Source of the DNA: an uncultured Rickettsiales bacterium
Lineage (GTDB): Bacteria; Pseudomonadota; Alphaproteobacteria; UBA8366
Length of the DNA: 30,638 bases
Direction: 5' to 3'
Assembly (NCBI GenBank): GCA_913046825.1
Contig: CAJWTF010000033.1
Location: 1 to 30,638, forward strand
Below, piece after piece: positions 11,554 through 20,443 of the stretch (position 1 is its first letter; the number at the start of each line of letters is the position of its first letter). The translations under genes and the position numbers were made by a program. A model generated the notes under the pieces. That model was given only the letters and a program-made list of their open reading frames with translations, was not told the origin of the DNA and made no database searches.

Positions 11554-13572
11554 TCACCCGTCTGCTTCGACCTGTACCTCGACACCATGCAAGGCGGTGC
11601 TGTCGACCATGTCGCTGCGAAGCCGCGGGTTGAGCGCATTGATGTTGAGACCGCTCGGACTCTTGCCCGGCCACCGGCCCTTGGGCGCCCAGCCGACACC
11701 GGGCGGCGTCTTGTCACTGATCGCGATCCGCATGGAGAGTTCGCCCGCCTCGTTCCATACCCGTGCGGTCGCGCCGTCGGCCAAATTGCGGGAGTGCGCA
11801 TCATCTGGATGGAGGGTCAGTGTCTCATGCTCAGTGCGCTCGAAGATGCGAGGCTCGTTGTCGTAGGAGGAGTTCATGTGCCATTCATCCGCCGGCGTCA
11901 GCAGTCGCAGATTTCCTGCCGCCGGTCGCGCCAAAGGGTCCGGCAGGGGTGTGCGTGGATGTCCGTCCGCTTCTGCCGCCGCGCTGGCGATCTCGATCTT
12001 CCCTGATGGTGTCGGATAGGCGTGATCTTCCCATAAGATCACCGGGTCTACGGAGGGATAGAAATTTCCAGCTGCTTTCAATTCATCAAAACTCAGATCG
12101 TGCGCCGTCAAGAGGTGCGCCAGGATCGACGCGTCGTCCTCAAAAAGTGCGGGTTCAGTCAGTCCCATAGCTTTGGACAAGCGGCGGAAAATATCCTGGT
12201 TCGGTAGCGCTTCGCCAATGGGCTCAGCCGCTTTGGATTGCGGGCCCAGGGTGAGATGAAAATAAGAGCCGACTAGATCATCGAATTCCAGGAAGCTTGC
12301 CGCTGGAAGCACATAATCCGCATAGCGCGCGCTGTCGGTCATGAAAAGCTCGGCGACGATTGTGAAGAGTTCTTCTGATTCCAACGCCTTGAGAAGCCTT
12401 TTTTGATCCGGGTTCGAGGCCGCGATATTAATGTTCCAAAGGATCAACGCCGTATCGTTCGGCGCCGCTTCGAGATGTGCGCAGAGATCCATGTGGCTGA
12501 CGGGAGTGGTTTCCGCTTGGCGCAAGCTCTCCTGGCCAACATAGCCCATGTCGAGGCCCCGTGTCGTGCCTTTGCCGTTGAGGAAACAGATACCAGTACC
12601 GGGCTTACCGATATTGCCGGTGACCGCCGGCAGCATCGTGACCGCACGAAAAGCATTCCCACCTGTGGGCGCCCGGCACAGAGCTTGGCCGAGGAAGATC
12701 ATCGATGGTCCGCCACCATAGGCTTCCGCCACCGCCAGAATATCCGCCTCGGACAGTCCGGTCGCCTCGCCAGCACGTGCCGGCGGCCAAGCATCGATTT
12801 GCAAATCCAGCTCTGCGAATCCGGTCGTGTGGGCATCAATGAAAACCCGGTCCAACTTACCCATCGCCTTGAGCGCATGCATCAAGCCGAAGGCCAAGGC
12901 GGAATCCGTGCCAGGGAAGGGGCGCAGATGAATATCGGCGCGCTCCGCGGTCGGAGTGCGGATCGGATCGACGACGATTAATGTGCCGGGGAATTCCGCC
13001 AACCAATGTTTGTCCACATGCGGGCCGCTGGCCGACGGATTGCCGCCCCAGACAATCAGGCATTGGGACGCTGTTGCGGTGCGCGGATCGAACCCGGTAG
13101 CGCTGTTCCCCAACACATAGCTGAGGGCGACATGGCCAGAGAGATTGCAGATCGAATCCGGTTCGATCTCCGTCGCACCGATATGATTGAAGAAGCGAAG
13201 CGGAAATTGATTGGCGATGACCGAACACGTCCCGGTGTAGTGCGCGGTCAAAATATCTTTCGCGCGATCCTTGGTGATCAATCCGTTGAGCCGGGCGGCG
13301 ATGTCGGACAACGCTTCATCCCAGGATACTTCCTCGAACGTATCCGAGCCTTTCGGTCCCGTGCGTTTCAGCGGCTTCTGCAGCCGCGCCTTTGGATCGC
13401 GCCACACACCATTATAGGCGAGAGTACACTTACCGCAGAGTGATCCTCTATTCGCCGGATGATCCGGGTCACCGGTCACCCGGTCGATGGCGCCGTTTTT
13501 CACAACAACACGAATACCGCAGCTGTCATAACAATCGCGCGGGCAGGTGGTCAGAATTGAGGTTTCGGTCAT
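11554..13572 (-). CDS. Cytoplasmic molybdopterin oxidoreductase with N-terminal 4Fe-4S domain
   Basis: DMSO-reductase-superfamily enzyme with a bis-pterin guanine dinucleotide molybdenum or tungsten site, 672 residues. The N-terminus has the cluster motif C10-x3-C14-x3-C18 with C46 in SLCGKC. C142 in SICNLSGHVAL is a plausible metal ligand by position, which would resemble the nitrate reductase/formate dehydrogenase branch; this is an inference. No twin-arginine signal is present, so it should stay in the cytoplasm. No ferredoxin-like or membrane subunit adjoins it. Instead two CMD-fold genes follow in the same direction. Family members act as reductases, dehydrogenases or hydroxylases, and the substrate is not predictable here. 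A GGAG precedes the ATG by 11 bases. Confidence 0.9.
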   Translation of the reverse strand: MTETSILTTCPRDCYDSCGIRVVVKNGAIDRVTGDPDHPANRGSLCGKCTLAYNGVWRDPKARLQKPLKRTGPKGSDTFEEVSWDEALSDIAARLNGLITKDRAKDILTAHYTGTCSVIANQFPLRFFNHIGATEIEPDSICNLSGHVALSYVLGNSATGFDPRTATASQCLIVWGGNPSASGPHVDKHWLAEFPGTLIVVDPIRTPTAERADIHLRPFPGTDSALAFGLMHALKAMGKLDRVFIDAHTTGFAELDLQIDAWPPARAGEATGLSEADILAVAEAYGGGPSMIFLGQALCRAPTGGNAFRAVTMLPAVTGNIGKPGTGICFLNGKGTTRGLDMGYVGQESLRQAETTPVSHMDLCAHLEAAPNDTALILWNINIAASNPDQKRLLKALESEELFTIVAELFMTDSARYADYVLPAASFLEFDDLVGSYFHLTLGPQSKAAEPIGEALPNQDIFRRLSKAMGLTEPALFEDDASILAHLLTAHDLSFDELKAAGNFYPSVDPVILWEDHAYPTPSGKIEIASAAAEADGHPRTPLPDPLARPAAGNLRLLTPADEWHMNSSYDNEPRIFERTEHETLTLHPDDAHSRNLADGATARVWNEAGELSMRIAISDKTPPGVGWAPKGRWPGKSPSGLNINALNPRLRSDMVDSTALHGVEVQVEADG

Positions 13573-13754
13573 GGTTTAGGGCGCTCCGGTTCGGTGGCGG
13601 TAAAGTGAGCCTATCGATAATAAAACCGCATCAGAGCCTCGAAGAGCCAATAAGCTGGAATGGCCTTGGTCCAATGCGGATTTTTGACCTATCTTCCTAT
13701 CAGCTATTCACGCGTCTTGCGACGCTCAGCCTTTCATTCTAAGGAACGACCACT
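13573..13754. promoter_or_regulatory. Divergent promoter region between molybdenum enzyme and GST genes
   Basis: This 182-base gap separates two outward-facing operons, so it must hold promoters for both. CCGCAT (13626-13631) and ATGCGG (13674-13679) form a widely spaced inverted repeat, and TTGG-T-CCAA (13666-13674) is a small palindrome. AAGGA lies 9 bases before the GST-like start. No convincing -35/-10 pair was picked out. Confidence 0.4.
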
Positions 13755-14357
13755 ATGAAATTAATTTGCTCCGGCAATTCCCCTTATGCCCGTCGGCCTC
13801 GCATGGCCATCCGCGAAGCCGGTTTGATGGATAAAGTTGAAGAAGTCGATGTCTCTCCGATGCCCGATAATATGGACATGATCCTGGGCTTCGGGCCGGG
13901 GGCAAAGGTGCCGGGATTGGTTACCGATAGCGGCACCTATATCAGCGAGACGTTGGTCATATGCCATTATCTCGACGATATCTCTGGCGGGAAATTGTAT
14001 CCCAAAGACTCAGCCGCACGGGAGCAGGCAATGGTGATCGAGGGGATCGCCTCGTTGCTGATGGACTCCCAATTCGCGCGGTCGCACGAGAAGCGCCGTG
14101 AGGATGGCGAGAAATCCCAAGGCGTGATCGACAAGGAAGCGGGCCGTGCGGCGCGTTCCTATGACAGCTTGGAAGGTATGGTCGATTCGTTCGGTGACGA
14201 CTTCCACATGGGGTTGATGTCGGTCGTGGCCGCACTGGGTTACGCGGATTGGCGCCACCCTGACGATGGCTGGCGGGATGGACGCCCGAAATTGGCTGCT
14301 TGGTACAAAAAGATAGAAGATCGTTCGGCCGTGGCCGAAACGAAAGTCGTTCTTTAG
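13755..14357 (+). CDS. Glutathione S-transferase-family protein
   Basis: GST-fold protein of 200 residues. The N-terminal thioredoxin-like domain has SGNSPYARRPR, with S9 as the likely thiol-activating residue, KVPGL with the cis-proline P53, and SETLVICHYLDD, which corresponds to the glutathione gamma-glutamyl-binding turn. The C-terminal part (about 85-200) is the helical domain ending in the usual WYKKIEDR. It lies 81 bases upstream of a molybdopterin oxidoreductase on the same strand and is probably co-transcribed. It could conjugate glutathione to an electrophilic intermediate or act as an isomerase or thiol reductase. The class is not certain. Confidence 0.88.
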   Translation: MKLICSGNSPYARRPRMAIREAGLMDKVEEVDVSPMPDNMDMILGFGPGAKVPGLVTDSGTYISETLVICHYLDDISGGKLYPKDSAAREQAMVIEGIASLLMDSQFARSHEKRREDGEKSQGVIDKEAGRAARSYDSLEGMVDSFGDDFHMGLMSVVAALGYADWRHPDDGWRDGRPKLAAWYKKIEDRSAVAETKVVL

Positions 14358-14438
14358 GGTAGCGTCGCGGCGTTTATTTTTGGTGTGAAGCCCATCGCCG
14401 ACCCAAATCGGCAAAAAGGGAATTCGAGGGACAGTTAG

Positions 14439-16658
14439 ATGAATGCACTATATGAAGCGCCGCGGCCCGAAGGCCGTCCGGGCGAAACCGTTGTCACCAG
14501 CACGTGCGGCCACAATTGTGGCGGCCGTTGCGTGGTGAACGCCCATGTGGTGGAAGACAAGATAGTTAAAATCTCAACGGATGCCCGGCGCTGGAGTCCC
14601 GAACTGGCGCCATTGCCCGCCTGTGCGCGCGGTGTTGGGCAGATCGAGCGTGTCTATCACCCGGATCGCCTGAAGTATCCGATGCGCCGCGTTGGCCCGC
14701 GTGGCTCCGGCGAGTTCGAGCGTATTTCCTGGGAGGAAGCCTTGGACGAGGTCGCGGCGCAATTGCTGCGCGTGCGCGAGACCTACGGCAATGCGGCGAT
14801 CCTCGACGGTTCGCGTTCCGGCAATACGGCGATGTTGCATAGCCGCACTGGGCTGATCCGGTTCCTCAATATGTTCGGCGGCTCCAGCGGCTTGTGGTCG
14901 AGCATGTCCTGCGAGGCGGAGATCTTCTCCGTAAAGCAGACCTTCGGACCTGACGTCGTTTATAAGTCGGCGGGGCGTGAGCCGACCGATTACGTGAATT
15001 CGAAGCTGATTCTGATGTGGGGCTGGTCGCCTGCCGACGGCACCTTCGGGACCGGCACGCCGCAATATCTGAAGCATGCCAAGGAGCAAGGGGTACGGAT
15101 CGTTTGCATCGACCCGCGCCGCCATCGTTCCAGCAAGATGCTGGCGGAAGAGCATATCTTCATCCGGCCTTCGACCGATGCGGCGGCCCTGATCGCGATG
15201 GCCTATGTCATCGTCAGCGAAGGGCTGCACGACCAAGATTATCTCGATACATATGTGCAGGGCTTTGATGAGCACAGCCTGCCGGCAGGCGCACCTAAGG
15301 GTGGCTCCTACCGCGCCTATCTGATGGGCGAGGACGACGGCATTGTGAAGACACCGGAATGGGCGTCGGAGATTTGCGGCATTCCGGCGGAGACAATCCG
15401 CCGTTTGGCCATTGAATTTGGCTCGACCAAACCCGCGGCTATTCAATGTGGCTATGCGCCGGGGCGCACCTTGCATGGGGAACAGTTCCACCGCGCGGCT
15501 TATGCCTTGGCGGCGATGACCGGCAATATCGGCATTGTCGGTGGCAGCTCCGGCGTCAGCAACGGCTCGACCGGGCGCTCGGGCATCAAGTCGCTACCTG
15601 CGGGCAAAAACCCCATAGATTCGAAAATTTCGACACCGCTGCTCGCGGATTGCCTGGAGAAGGGTACGGCGGGCGGTTATCCGGCGGACATCAAATTCAT
15701 CTATTCAATGGGCGGCGATATCTTCAATCAAGCGCCGAACGCGCCGAAGATCGCAAAAGCGCTCGATAATGTAGAGTTCATCGTCGGCCAGGATCACTTC
15801 CTGACTCCAACCACCCGACATGCGGACATCGTTTTGCCCGCGACGACTTTCTGGGAGCGTAACGACGTTCACACCCCATGGGCGGGAGCTGGGCATTACG
15901 CGATCTTCATGAAGCAGGCGATCCAGCCGATGTATGAATGTCGTAACGACATGGATATTTTGGCCGACTTGGCCGAACGCGTCGGGATCGAGGGCTTTAA
16001 CGACAAATCCGAACTCGAATGGTTGCGCGAATTCACTGAAGACACGGTCGACGATTTCGACAAGTTCATGGAAGAGGGTGTGGCCCGCTTCCCAGCACCG
16101 AAGGACGCGGTTGCCTTCGCCGAGAAAATTAGGGATCCGGAAAACCACAAATTCACGACGCCGTCCGGCAAGATCGAAATCTACTCGACCGGCCTTGGCG
16201 AAAACCCCGATCCGTTCGGGCTTGGCGAGATTTCCGCTATTCCGAAATGGGTGCCGCATATCGAGACCAGCGAGACTTTCCCGCTCAGCATGTTGAGCTC
16301 GAAGTCCCGAGCGCGGACGCACTCAATTCACGGCAATCAGGAAAAGCTGAATCGGGTTGATCCGGACGATATTTGGATTCATCCGGCGGATGCCAATCCG
16401 CGCGGTATTCAGGACGGCCAAGCGGTGAAGGTGATGAGTGCGTCCGGCTCTTCCATCCTGCCGGTTCGCGTGACCGAGGATATCGCGCGCGGTTGTGTCT
16501 CCATGAAGGAAGGCCGCTGGTATGCACCGGACGCTGACGGCATCGACCGCGAAGGTTGTGCCAACGCGGTCACCGTCGATACGACGGCCCGTTGTGGAGC
16601 GACAACATACAACACAAACTTCGTCGAGGTGCGTCCGGTTAATCCAGGCCCGGCCTAG
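14439..16658 (+). CDS. DMSO-reductase-type molybdopterin oxidoreductase, no signal peptide
   Basis: Molybdenum bis-PGD enzyme of 739 residues resembling DmsA/BisC-type catalytic subunits. The 4Fe-4S motif is C23-x3-C27-x3-C31 with C62 in ACARG. Aligning FGGSSGLWSSMSCEAEIF with the DmsA region GYLN...YSTAQ puts the molybdenum ligand at S157, as in DMSO and biotin-sulfoxide reductases. Later motifs LILMWGWSPADG, CIDPRR and AMTGNIGIVGGSSG are typical. There is no twin-arginine leader and no dmsB/dmsC-like partner, which suggests a soluble cytoplasmic enzyme. It follows the GST-like gene and its stop overlaps the convergent peroxiredoxin-like gene by 4 bases. An S-oxide or N-oxide reductase, or a hydroxylase in the same superfamily, are the main options. 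Confidence 0.92.
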   Translation: MNALYEAPRPEGRPGETVVTSTCGHNCGGRCVVNAHVVEDKIVKISTDARRWSPELAPLPACARGVGQIERVYHPDRLKYPMRRVGPRGSGEFERISWEEALDEVAAQLLRVRETYGNAAILDGSRSGNTAMLHSRTGLIRFLNMFGGSSGLWSSMSCEAEIFSVKQTFGPDVVYKSAGREPTDYVNSKLILMWGWSPADGTFGTGTPQYLKHAKEQGVRIVCIDPRRHRSSKMLAEEHIFIRPSTDAAALIAMAYVIVSEGLHDQDYLDTYVQGFDEHSLPAGAPKGGSYRAYLMGEDDGIVKTPEWASEICGIPAETIRRLAIEFGSTKPAAIQCGYAPGRTLHGEQFHRAAYALAAMTGNIGIVGGSSGVSNGSTGRSGIKSLPAGKNPIDSKISTPLLADCLEKGTAGGYPADIKFIYSMGGDIFNQAPNAPKIAKALDNVEFIVGQDHFLTPTTRHADIVLPATTFWERNDVHTPWAGAGHYAIFMKQAIQPMYECRNDMDILADLAERVGIEGFNDKSELEWLREFTEDTVDDFDKFMEEGVARFPAPKDAVAFAEKIRDPENHKFTTPSGKIEIYSTGLGENPDPFGLGEISAIPKWVPHIETSETFPLSMLSSKSRARTHSIHGNQEKLNRVDPDDIWIHPADANPRGIQDGQAVKVMSASGSSILPVRVTEDIARGCVSMKEGRWYAPDADGIDREGCANAVTVDTTARCGATTYNTNFVEVRPVNPGPA

Positions 16659-16668
16659 TGATTTTTTT
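16646..16668 (+). terminator. Weak intrinsic terminator overlapping the DMSO-reductase-type stop
   Basis: AGGC-CCG-GCCT, extendable by a base pair, is followed after AGTGA by seven T residues (16662-16668). The stem is short but the U-run is the best in this part of the window. It straddles the stop codon and the end of the convergent gene. Confidence 0.35.
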
Positions 16669-17398
16669 GTAGAACCCCCACCGCTGGATGGAGAGGGTGA
16701 GGGGGCCCTTCTTTCGGGTAGCCAATCCCGCCCACATCGCCCGGATTAAAATAATCCTCGTCGACCCAGCCGTTCTCGCAGTACTCCGCCATGCATTGCT
16801 CGGCGAGCCCCACCATTTGATCGAGCGCGCCCAAGCCGCGTGTGTTGAAGAAGGTTTGGAAGCAGACCATTTCGTTGCTGCCTGCGTAGTTGCAGTCGTA
16901 AAGCTCGTGCCGGCCAACGAATTCCGAATACACCTCTTGGTCTGGGAGCGGCACGGTAAACCGCAGGCCCAGCTGATTGGCGTAGTCGTTGCCGATATCG
17001 TGGAGGAGATCGAACGAAAGATCGTTCTTATCGATCATCGCTTGATTCTTCTCCGGAGATTGTGGAGTGAGGGCCACGAAAGAAGCGCCGAGAGCTTCGA
17101 TTTGGTCGTTGATTGACTGCAAAGCATGCAACTCTGCATTACAATAAGGTCACCAAACGCCACGGAACACCGTCAAGACGACGGGCCCGGCGGCGAGCAG
17201 TTCGGATGATCCGATGGTTTCATTGAACGCGTTGGGCAGCGAAAACCCCGGGAGGCGGTCGCCTACCTTGACCACGCCGTCCATGATGTTGGACTCGAAC
17301 AACTCCTCGTTCGCGGCCCCCGTAATGACCCGTTTATTTTCTGCAATGCGTTTCGCACCGACGGCGCGAATCTCATCCAGCTTTTAAGCTAGTGACAT
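16655..17398 (-). CDS. Peroxiredoxin-like protein with UGA at the active site (probable selenoprotein)
   Basis: Thioredoxin-fold AhpC/TSA-like gene, 247 codons read from ATG 17398, which has GGAG 8 bases upstream. It begins MSLA-stop-KLDEIRA, as many peroxiredoxin-like proteins begin MSLxxKLDxIRA. It continues with VGDRLPGFSLPN (residues 45-56), then VVLTVFRGVW, an in-frame TGA at codon 83 (17150-17152), and PYCNAELHALQ. In relatives this reads RGVWCPYC, so UGA replaces the first (peroxidatic) cysteine of CxxC. A hairpin of SECIS geometry follows. Selenocysteine insertion would give a UxxC peroxidase or thiol oxidoreductase. Problems: TAA at codon 5 (17384-17386) separates the good start from the domain, though ATG at 17282-17284 (codon 39) could still give the core. 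After about residue 162 the sequence no longer resembles the family. A recently damaged gene is the main alternative. Confidence 0.65.
17118..17138 (-). promoter_or_regulatory. Candidate bacterial SECIS hairpin
   Basis: On the minus strand, 11 bases after the UGA (17150-17152), TGCAGAG pairs with CTTTGCA: seven pairs, one of them G-U. They enclose the loop TTGCATG. A U-G pair inside the loop would leave UGCAU with G as its second base. In bacteria SECIS lies within the reading frame just after UGA, and the E. coli fdhF element has about this distance and an exposed loop G. An alternative 5-bp fold, ATGCA-GAGT-TGCAT, competes. Folding was done by eye. Confidence 0.55.
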
Positions 17399-17623
17399 TT
17401 TCTTAACTCCAATTCAGTTGCAGACCCTGGTGAGGATCGGCGGTTACTTGTTTGCTGGCACCATTACAAGACGAGCGGTCAAATTGGGTCAAACGAGAAC
17501 CTCCATGGTGCTGAATTAGAACTTCTATGCGGATAGCCGCGCACCGCTTGCGCGCACCGATGATCGCCATAGATCGGTTCTCGCAGCCATTCGTGGGGTG
17601 CGATCAAGACGAAGGGAGTCGAC
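17399..17623. promoter_or_regulatory. Divergent promoter region with 10-base-spaced direct repeat
   Basis: This 225-base gap lies between the peroxiredoxin-like gene and the DUF35-thiolase operon. GGTCAAA occurs at 17477-17483 and again at 17487-17493, one helical turn apart, which could be a binding site for one regulator. AGGGAG at 17613-17618 is the ribosome-binding site for the DUF35 gene. No other gene or RNA was recognised here. Confidence 0.35.
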
Positions 17624-18004
17624 ATGTCCGAGCCAGCAGAAAAATCACCACTCGCGATCTTTCGCGAGCATTGCGACCGAGGCGATCTCGCCTATCAAGT
17701 CTCCGGCGGGAAAGCGTTTTTCTATCCCCGACTGACCGCGCCGGGTACCGGCAGCACCGATATCGATTGGAAGGTCAGCGAAGGTCTGGGCACGGTCTAT
17801 TCGACCACGACCTTGTTTCCGCGCGGCGCCGATCCCTACGATGTTTCATTGATCGATTTGGACGAAGGCTTTCGCATGATGAGCCGGGTCGAAGGCATCG
17901 ACCCGCTCGAGGTGAAGATCGGCATGCGAGTGAAGGTCCGCATGATCCCGGGCAGTGATGACGAAGTCCCCTATCCTGTATTCGACCTGGTGGAGGGCGC
18001 GTAA
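17624..18004 (+). CDS. DUF35 OB-fold protein lacking the zinc-ribbon cysteines
   Basis: DUF35-type acyl-CoA-associated OB-fold protein of 126 residues. These proteins partner thiolase-fold enzymes. The family normally has an N-terminal helix, a rubredoxin-like zinc ribbon (CxxC...CxxC around FYPR) and an OB fold. Here the helix region (about 8-20) and GGKAFFYPR are present, but the cysteines that should flank FYPR are absent (only C17 is in this part). The OB-fold segment GLGTVYSTTTLFPRGADPYDVSLIDLDEGFRMMSRVEG follows. The ATG at 17624 has AGGGAG 5 bases upstream. Its stop overlaps the thiolase-fold start by one base (TAATG). It probably forms a complex with that protein, helping bind the CoA substrate. 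Confidence 0.87.
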   Translation: MSEPAEKSPLAIFREHCDRGDLAYQVSGGKAFFYPRLTAPGTGSTDIDWKVSEGLGTVYSTTTLFPRGADPYDVSLIDLDEGFRMMSRVEGIDPLEVKIGMRVKVRMIPGSDDEVPYPVFDLVEGA

Positions 18005-19155
18005 TGAGCAAAATTCGTGGAAATGCGGCCATTGTAGGGACCGCTGAATCTGATCTCGGCGCTGTCGCGCCCGATATGTCGCCTATTGATTTGATGGCGC
18101 AGGGCACGGTCCGAGCGCTTGACGATTGCGGTCTCTCCTTGAAGGATGTCGACGGCATTATGGTGGCGGCGAGCCAATCGCGAATGGCCGCCCTGTCGTT
18201 ATGCGAATATCTTGGTGTAAATCCGAAAGTATTCGATTCGACACAGGTTGGCGGTTCGTCGTTTATGGCGCACCTCACCCACGCGCAAGCGGCCATTGAG
18301 GCGGGCCTGTGCGAAACCGTCCTGGTGGCCTACGGCAGCACGCAACGTACGGTTGGCCGCGCCACCGCATCGTCGCGCGAGCCCAATCCCTACGAAGATC
18401 CCTACAATCCGATGATGCCGCCGAGCGCCTACGCCATGGCCGCGGCCCGTCATATGCATGAGTTTGGCACCACGCGGGAACAAATCGCCGAAGTGGCGGT
18501 CGCAGCGCGGAAATGGGCACAGCTCAATCCAAAATCCTTCATGACCGACGATTTGAGTGTGGAAGGTGTGTTGGGTGCGCGCATGGTTAGCCATCCGTTC
18601 ACGGTTCGGGATTGCTGTTTGGTGACCGATGGCGGTGGTGCCATCGTCTTGACCACACCCGAGCGCGCCAAGGACTTGAAGCAGAAGCCGGCCTACATCC
18701 TCGGCACGGGCGAGGCGATCACCCACGCGATGATCAGCCAGATGCCGGACCTGACGACCACCGGCACTGCGATTTCCGGTCCCATCGCTTTCGAGCGGGC
18801 GGGCGTCAAACCTGCTGACATCGATGTCTTGGCGCTCTATGACGCTTTCACGATCAACGTCATCCTGTTCCTGGAAGATCTGGGCTATTGCCAAAAGGGC
18901 GAAGGCGGCGCGTTTGTCGAAGGCGGCCGGATCGCACCCGGTGGAGAGCTTGCAGTCAATACGTCCGGCGGTGGGCTCTCTTATTGCCACCCCGGCATGT
19001 ACGGCTTGCTGGTCCTAATCGAAGCCGCCCGGCAAATTCAAGGCGTTTGCGGCGATCGCCAACAAGACGGCGTCAACCTGACCCTGGCGCACGGCAACGG
19101 CGGCGTGTTGTCGAGCCAGTGCACGGTCATTCTGGGCAACGAAGATACGCTTTAG
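18004..19155 (+). CDS. Thiolase-superfamily protein (SCP2-thiolase/Ltp2-like), DUF35 partner
   Basis: Thiolase-fold protein of 383 residues, usual length for the lipid-transfer/SCP2-thiolase group. FDSTQVGGSSFMAH (77-90) occupies the place of the nucleophile loop, but the reactive cysteine of true thiolases is not seen there (V82-G83-G84-S85). The later motifs NTSGGGLSYCHPGMYG (H329) and LAHGNGG (H363) are kept. A thiolase-fold enzyme without the nucleophile, paired with a DUF35 protein, recalls Ltp2/ChsH2-type steroid side-chain retro-aldolases. A retro-aldol cleavage of a CoA thioester is therefore a reasonable inference, not a demonstrated role. Start and stop are clear, and it converges with folC after 4 bases. 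Confidence 0.88.
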   Translation: MSKIRGNAAIVGTAESDLGAVAPDMSPIDLMAQGTVRALDDCGLSLKDVDGIMVAASQSRMAALSLCEYLGVNPKVFDSTQVGGSSFMAHLTHAQAAIEAGLCETVLVAYGSTQRTVGRATASSREPNPYEDPYNPMMPPSAYAMAAARHMHEFGTTREQIAEVAVAARKWAQLNPKSFMTDDLSVEGVLGARMVSHPFTVRDCCLVTDGGGAIVLTTPERAKDLKQKPAYILGTGEAITHAMISQMPDLTTTGTAISGPIAFERAGVKPADIDVLALYDAFTINVILFLEDLGYCQKGEGGAFVEGGRIAPGGELAVNTSGGGLSYCHPGMYGLLVLIEAARQIQGVCGDRQQDGVNLTLAHGNGGVLSSQCTVILGNEDTL

Positions 19156-19159
19156 GAGC

Positions 19160-20443
19160 TTACCTGTTCTCGGCCAGCACCTGGCCTGCGAGGTAAAGCG
19201 AGCCGCAGATTAGGATGCGGCCGGGAGCGGAGTTCTGTTGGACGATGGTCTCGATCGCTGTGGCAAATCCCGCCGCCGGCGCGGCGGATAATCCTACCGC
19301 ATGACCGGCTTTGGTGGCTTCAGATGCCGAAAGGCTGGCCTCCTCGTTGGGAATCGCCACCCCGTGCAATCCAATTGCGCGGGCCGCCAATGGACGTAAG
19401 AAATCCGTTGGTTCCTTGCTATTCAACATACCGAATACCAGATACAATGCTCGATCTGTCCATTCCGCCGCAACGGCGGCAAGCATCTCGCCCGCAGCGG
19501 CATTGTGTCCACCATCGAGCCACAATTCCCAACCCGGCGGCAGAAGGTCGACAAGTTTACCGGTGGCGAGGTGTTGGACCCGCGCCGGCCATTCGACCGT
19601 CCGCAGGCCTCGTGAAATCGCTGCGTCGTCAACCTTAAATCCGTCGAGATTTCCAAGACCGGCGATGGCCAGACCCGCATTTTCGATTTGGTGCGGTCCT
19701 GGAAGTGCCGGTAACGGAAAGCGGCGGCGGGTTTGGGCGTTTTCGAATATCAGCGCGTTGTCTTCCCAAGTGCTATGCCATTCCGCGCCCGCACGATAGA
19801 CCGAGGCGCCTCGTGCCTTGGCCGCGTCTTCAATCACTTCGGCTGCGATCGCTGTTTGCGGGCCCACGATGGTCGTCACGCCGCGCTTTTGGATCGCTGC
19901 TTTCTCACCGGCGATCTCTGCCAATGTATTTCCGAGAAATTGCATGTGATCCATCGAGATCGGGGTAATCGCCGTCAGCGCCGGTCGGTCGATCACGGTG
20001 GTCGCGTCGTAGCGCCCGCCAAGCCCGCATTCAAGCAATACAATATCGGCGGGCGTCTCAGCAAAGGCCTTGAAGGCCGCGGCCGTGGTGATCTCGAAAT
20101 AAGTGATCTGCTCACCCTGGTTCGCGGACTCGCAAACTTCAAGCAGATCGGACAGCGCGTCTTCCTCGATCAAACTACCTGCCAATCGAATGCGCTCGTT
20201 GAACCGAACGAGATGCGGCGAAGTATAGGCATGCGTTCGGTAGCCGGCCGCCTCCAGCATCGCGCGCAGAAAGGCGATAGTCGAACCTTTGCCGTTTGTG
20301 CCCGCGACATGAACGACCGGCGGTAGTTTTTCGTGCGGATTGCCGAGGCGTTTCAACAGTCCCAAGACTCGGCCCAAGGACAGATCGATTTTTTTCGGGT
20401 GGAGCCGCAGCAGACGCTCCAAAATGGCGTCGCTCTTTGCCAT
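19160..20443 (-). CDS. folC: Folylpolyglutamate/dihydrofolate synthase
   Basis: Mur-ligase-family enzyme of 427 residues that adds glutamate to folates and, in bacteria, usually also makes dihydrofolate from dihydropteroate. The ATP P-loop is AGTNGKGS (47-54). TSPHLVRFNERI and ECGLGGRYDATTVID follow, and ITPISMDHMQFLGNTLAEIAGEKAAI is the characteristic ligase signature. The C-terminal domain includes WLDGGHNAAAGE and the end LICGSLYLAGQVLAE. It lies 8 bases after accD, a pairing common in proteobacteria. It ends the housekeeping block in this window. The start ATG gives MAKSDAILERLL. Confidence 0.96.
   Translation of the reverse strand: MAKSDAILERLLRLHPKKIDLSLGRVLGLLKRLGNPHEKLPPVVHVAGTNGKGSTIAFLRAMLEAAGYRTHAYTSPHLVRFNERIRLAGSLIEEDALSDLLEVCESANQGEQITYFEITTAAAFKAFAETPADIVLLECGLGGRYDATTVIDRPALTAITPISMDHMQFLGNTLAEIAGEKAAIQKRGVTTIVGPQTAIAAEVIEDAAKARGASVYRAGAEWHSTWEDNALIFENAQTRRRFPLPALPGPHQIENAGLAIAGLGNLDGFKVDDAAISRGLRTVEWPARVQHLATGKLVDLLPPGWELWLDGGHNAAAGEMLAAVAAEWTDRALYLVFGMLNSKEPTDFLRPLAARAIGLHGVAIPNEEASLSASEATKAGHAVGLSAAPAAGFATAIETIVQQNSAPGRILICGSLYLAGQVLAENR

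Follow-up and report, generated by a model that had tools for sequence, protein, structure and literature searches.

The window, a stretch of 30,638 nucleotides (contig CAJWTF010000033.1, assembly GCA_913046825.1) from an uncultured Rickettsiales bacterium, carries on its minus strand the front of a peroxiredoxin-like gene joined to the end of an hpaB gene. The original start is an ATG at 17398, preceded by a Shine-Dalgarno-like GGAG (17407..17410); GGAG or GGAGA likewise precedes the gene in the relatives compared. The first four codons (MSLA, 17387..17398), whose 12 bases are those of the relative G043, lead to an in-frame TAA in place of the GCA or GAA that relatives use as codon 5 (17386-17384); KLDEIRA comes next. 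From 17383 down to a TAG at 16657-16655 the frame is open except for a TGA at 17152-17150, in the context FRGVW-TGA-PYCNAEL. Original codons 6-160 (16919..17383), which include the UGA, form the peroxiredoxin part and are 77% identical to the G043 gene. A junction codon for valine (16916..16918) leads into 68 codons of hpaB 3' end (GRHELY...YPK, 16712..16915), and past the lost hpaB stop the frame runs on to the TAG (16655..16711), where it overlaps the terminal part of mop2, a convergent ORF.

AhpC-TSA (Pfam PF00578) matches residues 40-145 of the read-through from 17383 with 71.1 bits, and PF08534 (Redoxin) scores 56 bits on the window protein. An earlier, sequence-only reading of this DNA had described a peroxiredoxin-like frame continuing on both sides of the TGA; there is indeed one such minus-strand frame with an AhpC-TSA match, and the short frame from TTG 17131 that a standard gene caller would give is also present. 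It had, however, taken 16655..17398 as an open gene, overlooking the TAA, and as peroxiredoxin-like throughout, which is correct for the front part but not for the ~68 C-terminal residues. These belong to the end of an HpaB-family protein, residues 151-217 matching positions 445-511 of 519 in the HpaB-2 model TIGR02310 (NCBIfam, E 3.7e-15). On one side lie an OB-fold gene (17624-18004, +), a thiolase (18004-19155, +) and folC (19160-20443, -), a block (17624..20443) in the same order in G043 (locus L123) and UBA6544 (locus L001). On the other, two molybdopterin oxidoreductases and a GST-like gene (11554-16658) adjoin the broken gene; they are absent from the corresponding place in G043, and UBA6544 keeps only the end of the first oxidoreductase. 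Rfam and tRNA scans of the window gave no match.

Among the best 80 of 183 confirmed matches of a folC scan, the nearest listed relative is UBA6544 (G001, 71% identity). In its order, 10 of 43 genomes have a peroxiredoxin match at 1e-15 or better; the top seven have exactly one in-frame TGA each and the remaining three have none. All seven UGA orthologues place the TGA in W-UGA-PYCNAEL and retain an unfused peroxiredoxin C-terminus. A sample of the class yielded matches at 1e-40 in 41 of 385 genomes, at 48 places, and the top 16 places (15 genomes) each hold one TGA, all WUPYC on inspection. W-UGA-PYC is therefore found in 23/23 inspected UGA copies of relatives at 22 loci, 7 from the order and 16 from the class scan. 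The UGA occupies the column of the peroxidatic cysteine, with a Cys at +3, and distant homologues have Cys at the UGA column. The motif GVWCPYC that the sequence-only reading attributed to relatives is thus that of distant ones, whereas the nearest have U; its placing of a Sec codon at the peroxidatic cysteine agrees with all 23 copies. By descent, then, the window UGA is a codon for selenocysteine, and the UxxC peroxiredoxin-like family to which it belongs is a real selenoperoxiredoxin.

The other 32 class-sample places comprise 29 that are stop-free and three more distant ones with one stop each (TGA in G241 C1, TAG in G358 and G081). Four of five stop-free loci inspected read WCPYC and one has no motif match. 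Locus L133 (genome G343) holds two tandem UGA copies, at 1747 and 2660 (+). A contig profile scan with the family alignment returned 87 stretches, none a relative. Searched as a protein, the whole read-through (34 matches) finds peroxiredoxin-like proteins for its front and three HpaB-domain proteins for its back (P0003, P0007 and P0009; 76-85% identity over 29-31% of the query). The post-UGA stretch finds eight proteins among 10 candidates: the fused P0001, P0037-P0040, P0035 with an internal deletion, P0036 with a different end and the short P0041. Gene calling hides the family here, as the database entries for four related proteins (P0037-P0040) are 122-residue fragments, each starting with the Leu of a HALQ stretch ten codons past the UGA column. 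The G043 frame after its own UGA is also 122 residues long and, judging from it, a UGA probably lies ahead of these proteins. P0002 (215 aa) falls among the Sec rows of the tree, yet has Ser at the Sec position (RGHWSPYC); the Ser codon UCA is one base from UGA, and this residue would reflect either Sec loss or sequence error.

Relatives in the order read TGCAGAGC-TGTAT-GCTTTGCA, or near variants, after the UGA, and the hairpin loop begins 19 nt past it. The window, too, has a SECIS-type hairpin (17118..17138, -), with an 8-bp stem closed by a U-G pair, a 5-nt loop UGCAU with G second, a spacing of 19 and an MFE of -11.5. This lies within the bacterial SECIS constraints set out in the part of PMC13188914 consulted (loop 3-9 nt, stem 4-16 bp, G in the first two loop positions, spacing 16-37 nt, MFE at most -7.5). 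The apex is altered at 17131 and 17128. The base after the loop G is U in 17 relatives and G in six, but C in the window, so the usual loop G[G/U] of all 23 relatives is replaced by GC; position +22, a constant C in the 23 relatives, is T. Across the 18 closest rows, two unique changes occur in the window, two in the second copy in L133 (elsewhere in the element) and one each in L091 and L134. It is not their number in the window but their position that is unusual: they fall at the apex, to which SelB binds.

Where two of seven sequences, the window included, share a residue at codons +1 to +12 after the UGA, they also use the same codon in 184 of 227 comparisons (0.81), as against 0.28-0.56 in seven other stretches of the same sequences. 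Codon choice thus appears frozen directly 3' of the UGA, which points to constraint at the RNA level. Hairpin energy by itself is weak evidence, since synonymous shuffles as stable as the real hairpin numbered, out of 500, 8 to 50 in seven relatives and 93 in the window; three Cys genes gave 50, 331 and 148.

The tRNA-Sec model RF01852 gives a weak signal in all 43 genomes of the order and exceeds its cut-off in 31 of them and in 5 of 14 controls. Because controls also pass, a gap in the scores was used to call strong tRNA-Sec: 19 genomes score 67.8-79.8 bits and the next 53.9, the lower matches probably being other tRNAs. SelB is over cut-off in 18/43 order genomes and 2/14 controls, with partial matches in UBA6544 and G021. 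Strong tRNA-Sec and SelB coincide in 17 genomes, including the seven UGA genomes and UBA6544; ten of the 17, UBA6544 among them, are without a peroxiredoxin match at 1e-15, so the Sec machinery does not depend on this gene. In the three Cys genomes (G009, G010, G016) neither SelB nor tRNA-Sec reaches its cut-off. SelA is over cut-off in 8/8 genomes (the seven UGA genomes and UBA6544) and SelD in 7/8 (not found in G042), versus 0/3 Cys genomes for each. ARAGORN reports tRNA-Sec with anticodon TCA in 8/8 loci given, out of 12 fetched. In G020, G021, G040 and G041 the SelD match itself contains one in-frame TGA and is probably the Sec-containing SelD, a known selenoprotein. UBA6544 has a further peroxiredoxin frame (L085, ~1639, +) with TGA in TPGUTVEGNG, a TxxU type and likely its second selenoprotein.

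The origin of the window fusion is suggested by G043, which shares the gene order of the window: ihfB, lapA, age, pyrF, trpF, trpB, trpA, accD, folC, thiolase, OB, prx. There the intact peroxiredoxin gene is followed by three ORFs, by eye tetR-, ligA- and ligB-like, and then by an intact hpaB of 519 residues in the same orientation. In the window, the peroxiredoxin sequence breaks off after VYSEF and the hpaB tail takes over; relative to G043, the window here lacks 3,481 bases (L123 10019-13499). The C-terminal ~68-70 residues are 72% identical to the G043 hpaB tail; the full N-terminal and catalytic domains of the HpaB hydroxylase are absent. Both partners have SEF(G) near the junction (VYSEFG in P0037, GSEFGG in G043 HpaB). 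A deletion therefore appears to have fused the two genes. P0035, 96% identical to the window stretch, reads VYSEF-VIDQ, and as the window likewise has V after VYSEF, two successive deletions are possible.

In close relatives, the 3' part of the gene seems prone to repeated breakage. P0035 (101 aa) has an internal 21-residue deletion after VYSEF and P0036 (94 aa) takes a different end after LPGHNG, while P0001, which comprises 27 member sequences from 4 contigs and differs from the window at two residues, keeps the window fusion open. In UBA6544 an N-terminal peroxiredoxin remnant lies beside the same OB-thiolase-folC flank and runs, just ahead of the active-site position, into the end of a molybdopterin oxidoreductase gene (mop1 641-669), a different lesion; this genome, of unstated completeness, has no peroxiredoxin match at 1e-15. 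The sequence-only reading had held that relatives broken at other places would make the gene an ordinary pseudogene. The UBA6544 remnant answers in part to that description, but the UGA itself is not among the disabling changes.

In structural terms, the fusion lacks the last strands and last helix of the thioredoxin-like fold and has the hpaB tail instead. The AlphaFold model of intact G043 (pLDDT 94.7, pTM 0.91) places strands 174-176, 179-183 and 188-194 and helix 204-213 past the point of the junction. The model of the window fusion has pLDDT 69.2 and pTM 0.70, with tail blocks at 31-63; its alignment had peroxiredoxin rows in the tail columns, so the predicted tail strands are not to be trusted. 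An LPxP segment, invariant in 14/14 intact rows, is also missing from the fusion.

The peroxiredoxin part shows little sign of decay. Its dN/dS against G043 is 0.118, compared with 0.097, 0.080 and 0.192 in three intact pairs, and it departs from one of 33 columns that are constant in the remaining rows, the corresponding figure for other rows being 0-3. Over the 66 residues past the UGA, the window has one unique change among seven rows and three among five. In the tree its sister is G043, itself a UGA form (support 100/99); the branch that sets the Sec rows and one Ser row (P0002) to one side has support of only 88/54. (The tree contains one row twice, the second copy in L133; L149, without a motif match, was left out.) The end branch is 0.24 for the window versus 0.036, and of the residue changes between window and G043, 13 are assigned to the window and one to G043, while 17 are ambiguous; some of the window changes also occur in intact P0037, so part of this divergence is older than the break. 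In the hpaB tail (67 columns), by comparison, the window differs at 8 sites that are constant in the other rows, with two R to C changes, one A to T and one S to L among them; four intact proteins differ in this way at 3, 1, 0 and 0 sites. The tail thus appears accelerated, whereas the peroxiredoxin part is not and its dN/dS is not raised, which suggests that the break is recent.

UxxC Prx-like selenoproteins in pfam00578/pfam08534 are already known (PMC2398784, PMC1088965, PMC13188914, each as far as the sections consulted go). Those sections describe Prx-like 1 (pfam00578) and Prx-like 3 (pfam08534) in PMC2398784, and a 'Prx-like thiol:disulfide oxidoreductase' (PF00578, UxxC) and a 'Redoxin family protein' (PF08534, UxxC) in PMC13188914. 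Compared by descriptions rather than alignments, the present family shares with them the Pfam domain, the Sec in first place of UxxC and a SECIS past the UGA; the window copy differs in being broken. NCBIfam SelL_rel_redox (NF040769) matches the window protein and G043 weakly (22-32 bits vs a curated cut-off of 120), as does peroxi_PrxU (NF040737) G043 (26 bits vs 270). The intact G043 model has the fold of Bcp/PrxQ and AhpE peroxiredoxins in the PDB (5epf, 3hjp and 1xxu, with target TM 0.87-0.89 and 18-22% identity, and others), which are shorter. HpaB-type 4-hydroxyphenylacetate 3-monooxygenase (TIGR02310) resembles the fused frame in the last 68 codons only, a tail without the catalytic domain. 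Selenoprotein loss and SECIS remnants in Cys forms are treated in PMC1794560. None of the literature titles listed concerns the W-UGA-PYC subfamily or a peroxiredoxin-HpaB pseudogene, which does not prove their absence.

Given the TAA and the deletion fusion, set against the intact syntenic G043 gene, the window gene is very probably a recently disabled pseudogene of a genuine selenoperoxiredoxin and its UGA a fossil Sec codon. The locus would once have carried a UxxC selenoperoxiredoxin gene, whose UGA would be read by SelB and tRNA-Sec, via the hairpin directly downstream, as the peroxidatic selenocysteine, with the Cys at +3 as resolving residue for the selenenic acid, a chemistry taken from the family. 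In the window lineage a deletion, 3,481 bases long by comparison with G043, would then have joined the gene after VYSEF to the last 68 hpaB codons, taking the rest of the enzyme and the intervening genes, and codon 5 would have become TAA and the SECIS apex been altered. An intact selenoprotein is ruled out by the TAA and the fusion. The UxxC peroxidase or thiol oxidoreductase of the sequence-only reading thus fits the family, by its domain and shared UGA, but not a working copy, the gene having a TAA and its C-terminal third being lost to the hpaB fusion; its view of the window copy as a selenoprotein is most likely wrong.

Several observations count against a pseudogene. The TAA is seen in one sequence only, the window; the peroxiredoxin part shows no relaxed selection, the frame is open past the TAA except for the UGA, and P0001 keeps the fusion open; and the hairpin remains within the constraints in the consulted part of PMC13188914, its two unique changes being equalled by one relative. 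The open frame, low dN/dS, retained fusion and permissible hairpin would equally favor a working selenoprotein, its translation starting beyond the TAA (one candidate is the in-frame ATG at 17284, codon 39, which is M in G043 as well), with the UGA read as Sec and the fusion acting as a peroxidase. We consider this unlikely, however, as the protein would lack the N-terminal helices and everything after VYSEF, including the invariant LPxP; moreover, its tail is of low confidence in AlphaFold, the original start still stands ahead of the TAA, and the loop G is followed by C, versus U or G in 23/23 relatives. Translation of the fused frame with Sec from a start past the TAA, giving a chimeric selenoprotein with a peroxiredoxin active site on an HpaB-derived tail, is given a slim chance; if true, a deletion would have created a novel selenoprotein architecture.

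An artefact of assembly or sequencing, with the join chimeric or the TAA false and the gene intact in the organism, seems similarly improbable: the TAA is unconfirmed elsewhere, but the same fusion recurs in P0001, with its own two residue differences, and the 8 unique changes in the hpaB tail are unlike a fresh chimera. That an ordinary Cys peroxiredoxin pseudogene had its TGC or TGT mutated to TGA has next to no probability, for even with the gene broken in other ways, the UGA is common to all inspected close copies, the RNA after it appears constrained, and the window is sister to a UGA form. Two further candidates were rejected: a chance nonsense mutation at a Cys codon, as the UGA is common to relatives, and TGA read as tryptophan, as homologues have Cys (once Ser) there and TGA is the ordinary stop of 13 of the 26 main ORFs in the window.

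On the pseudogene reading, a selenoprotein gene would here be caught during its loss, two related lineages having suffered different deletions at the same syntenic position. The nearest relative, UBA6544, meanwhile keeps SelA, SelB and tRNA-Sec together with another candidate selenoprotein frame, the TxxU peroxiredoxin.
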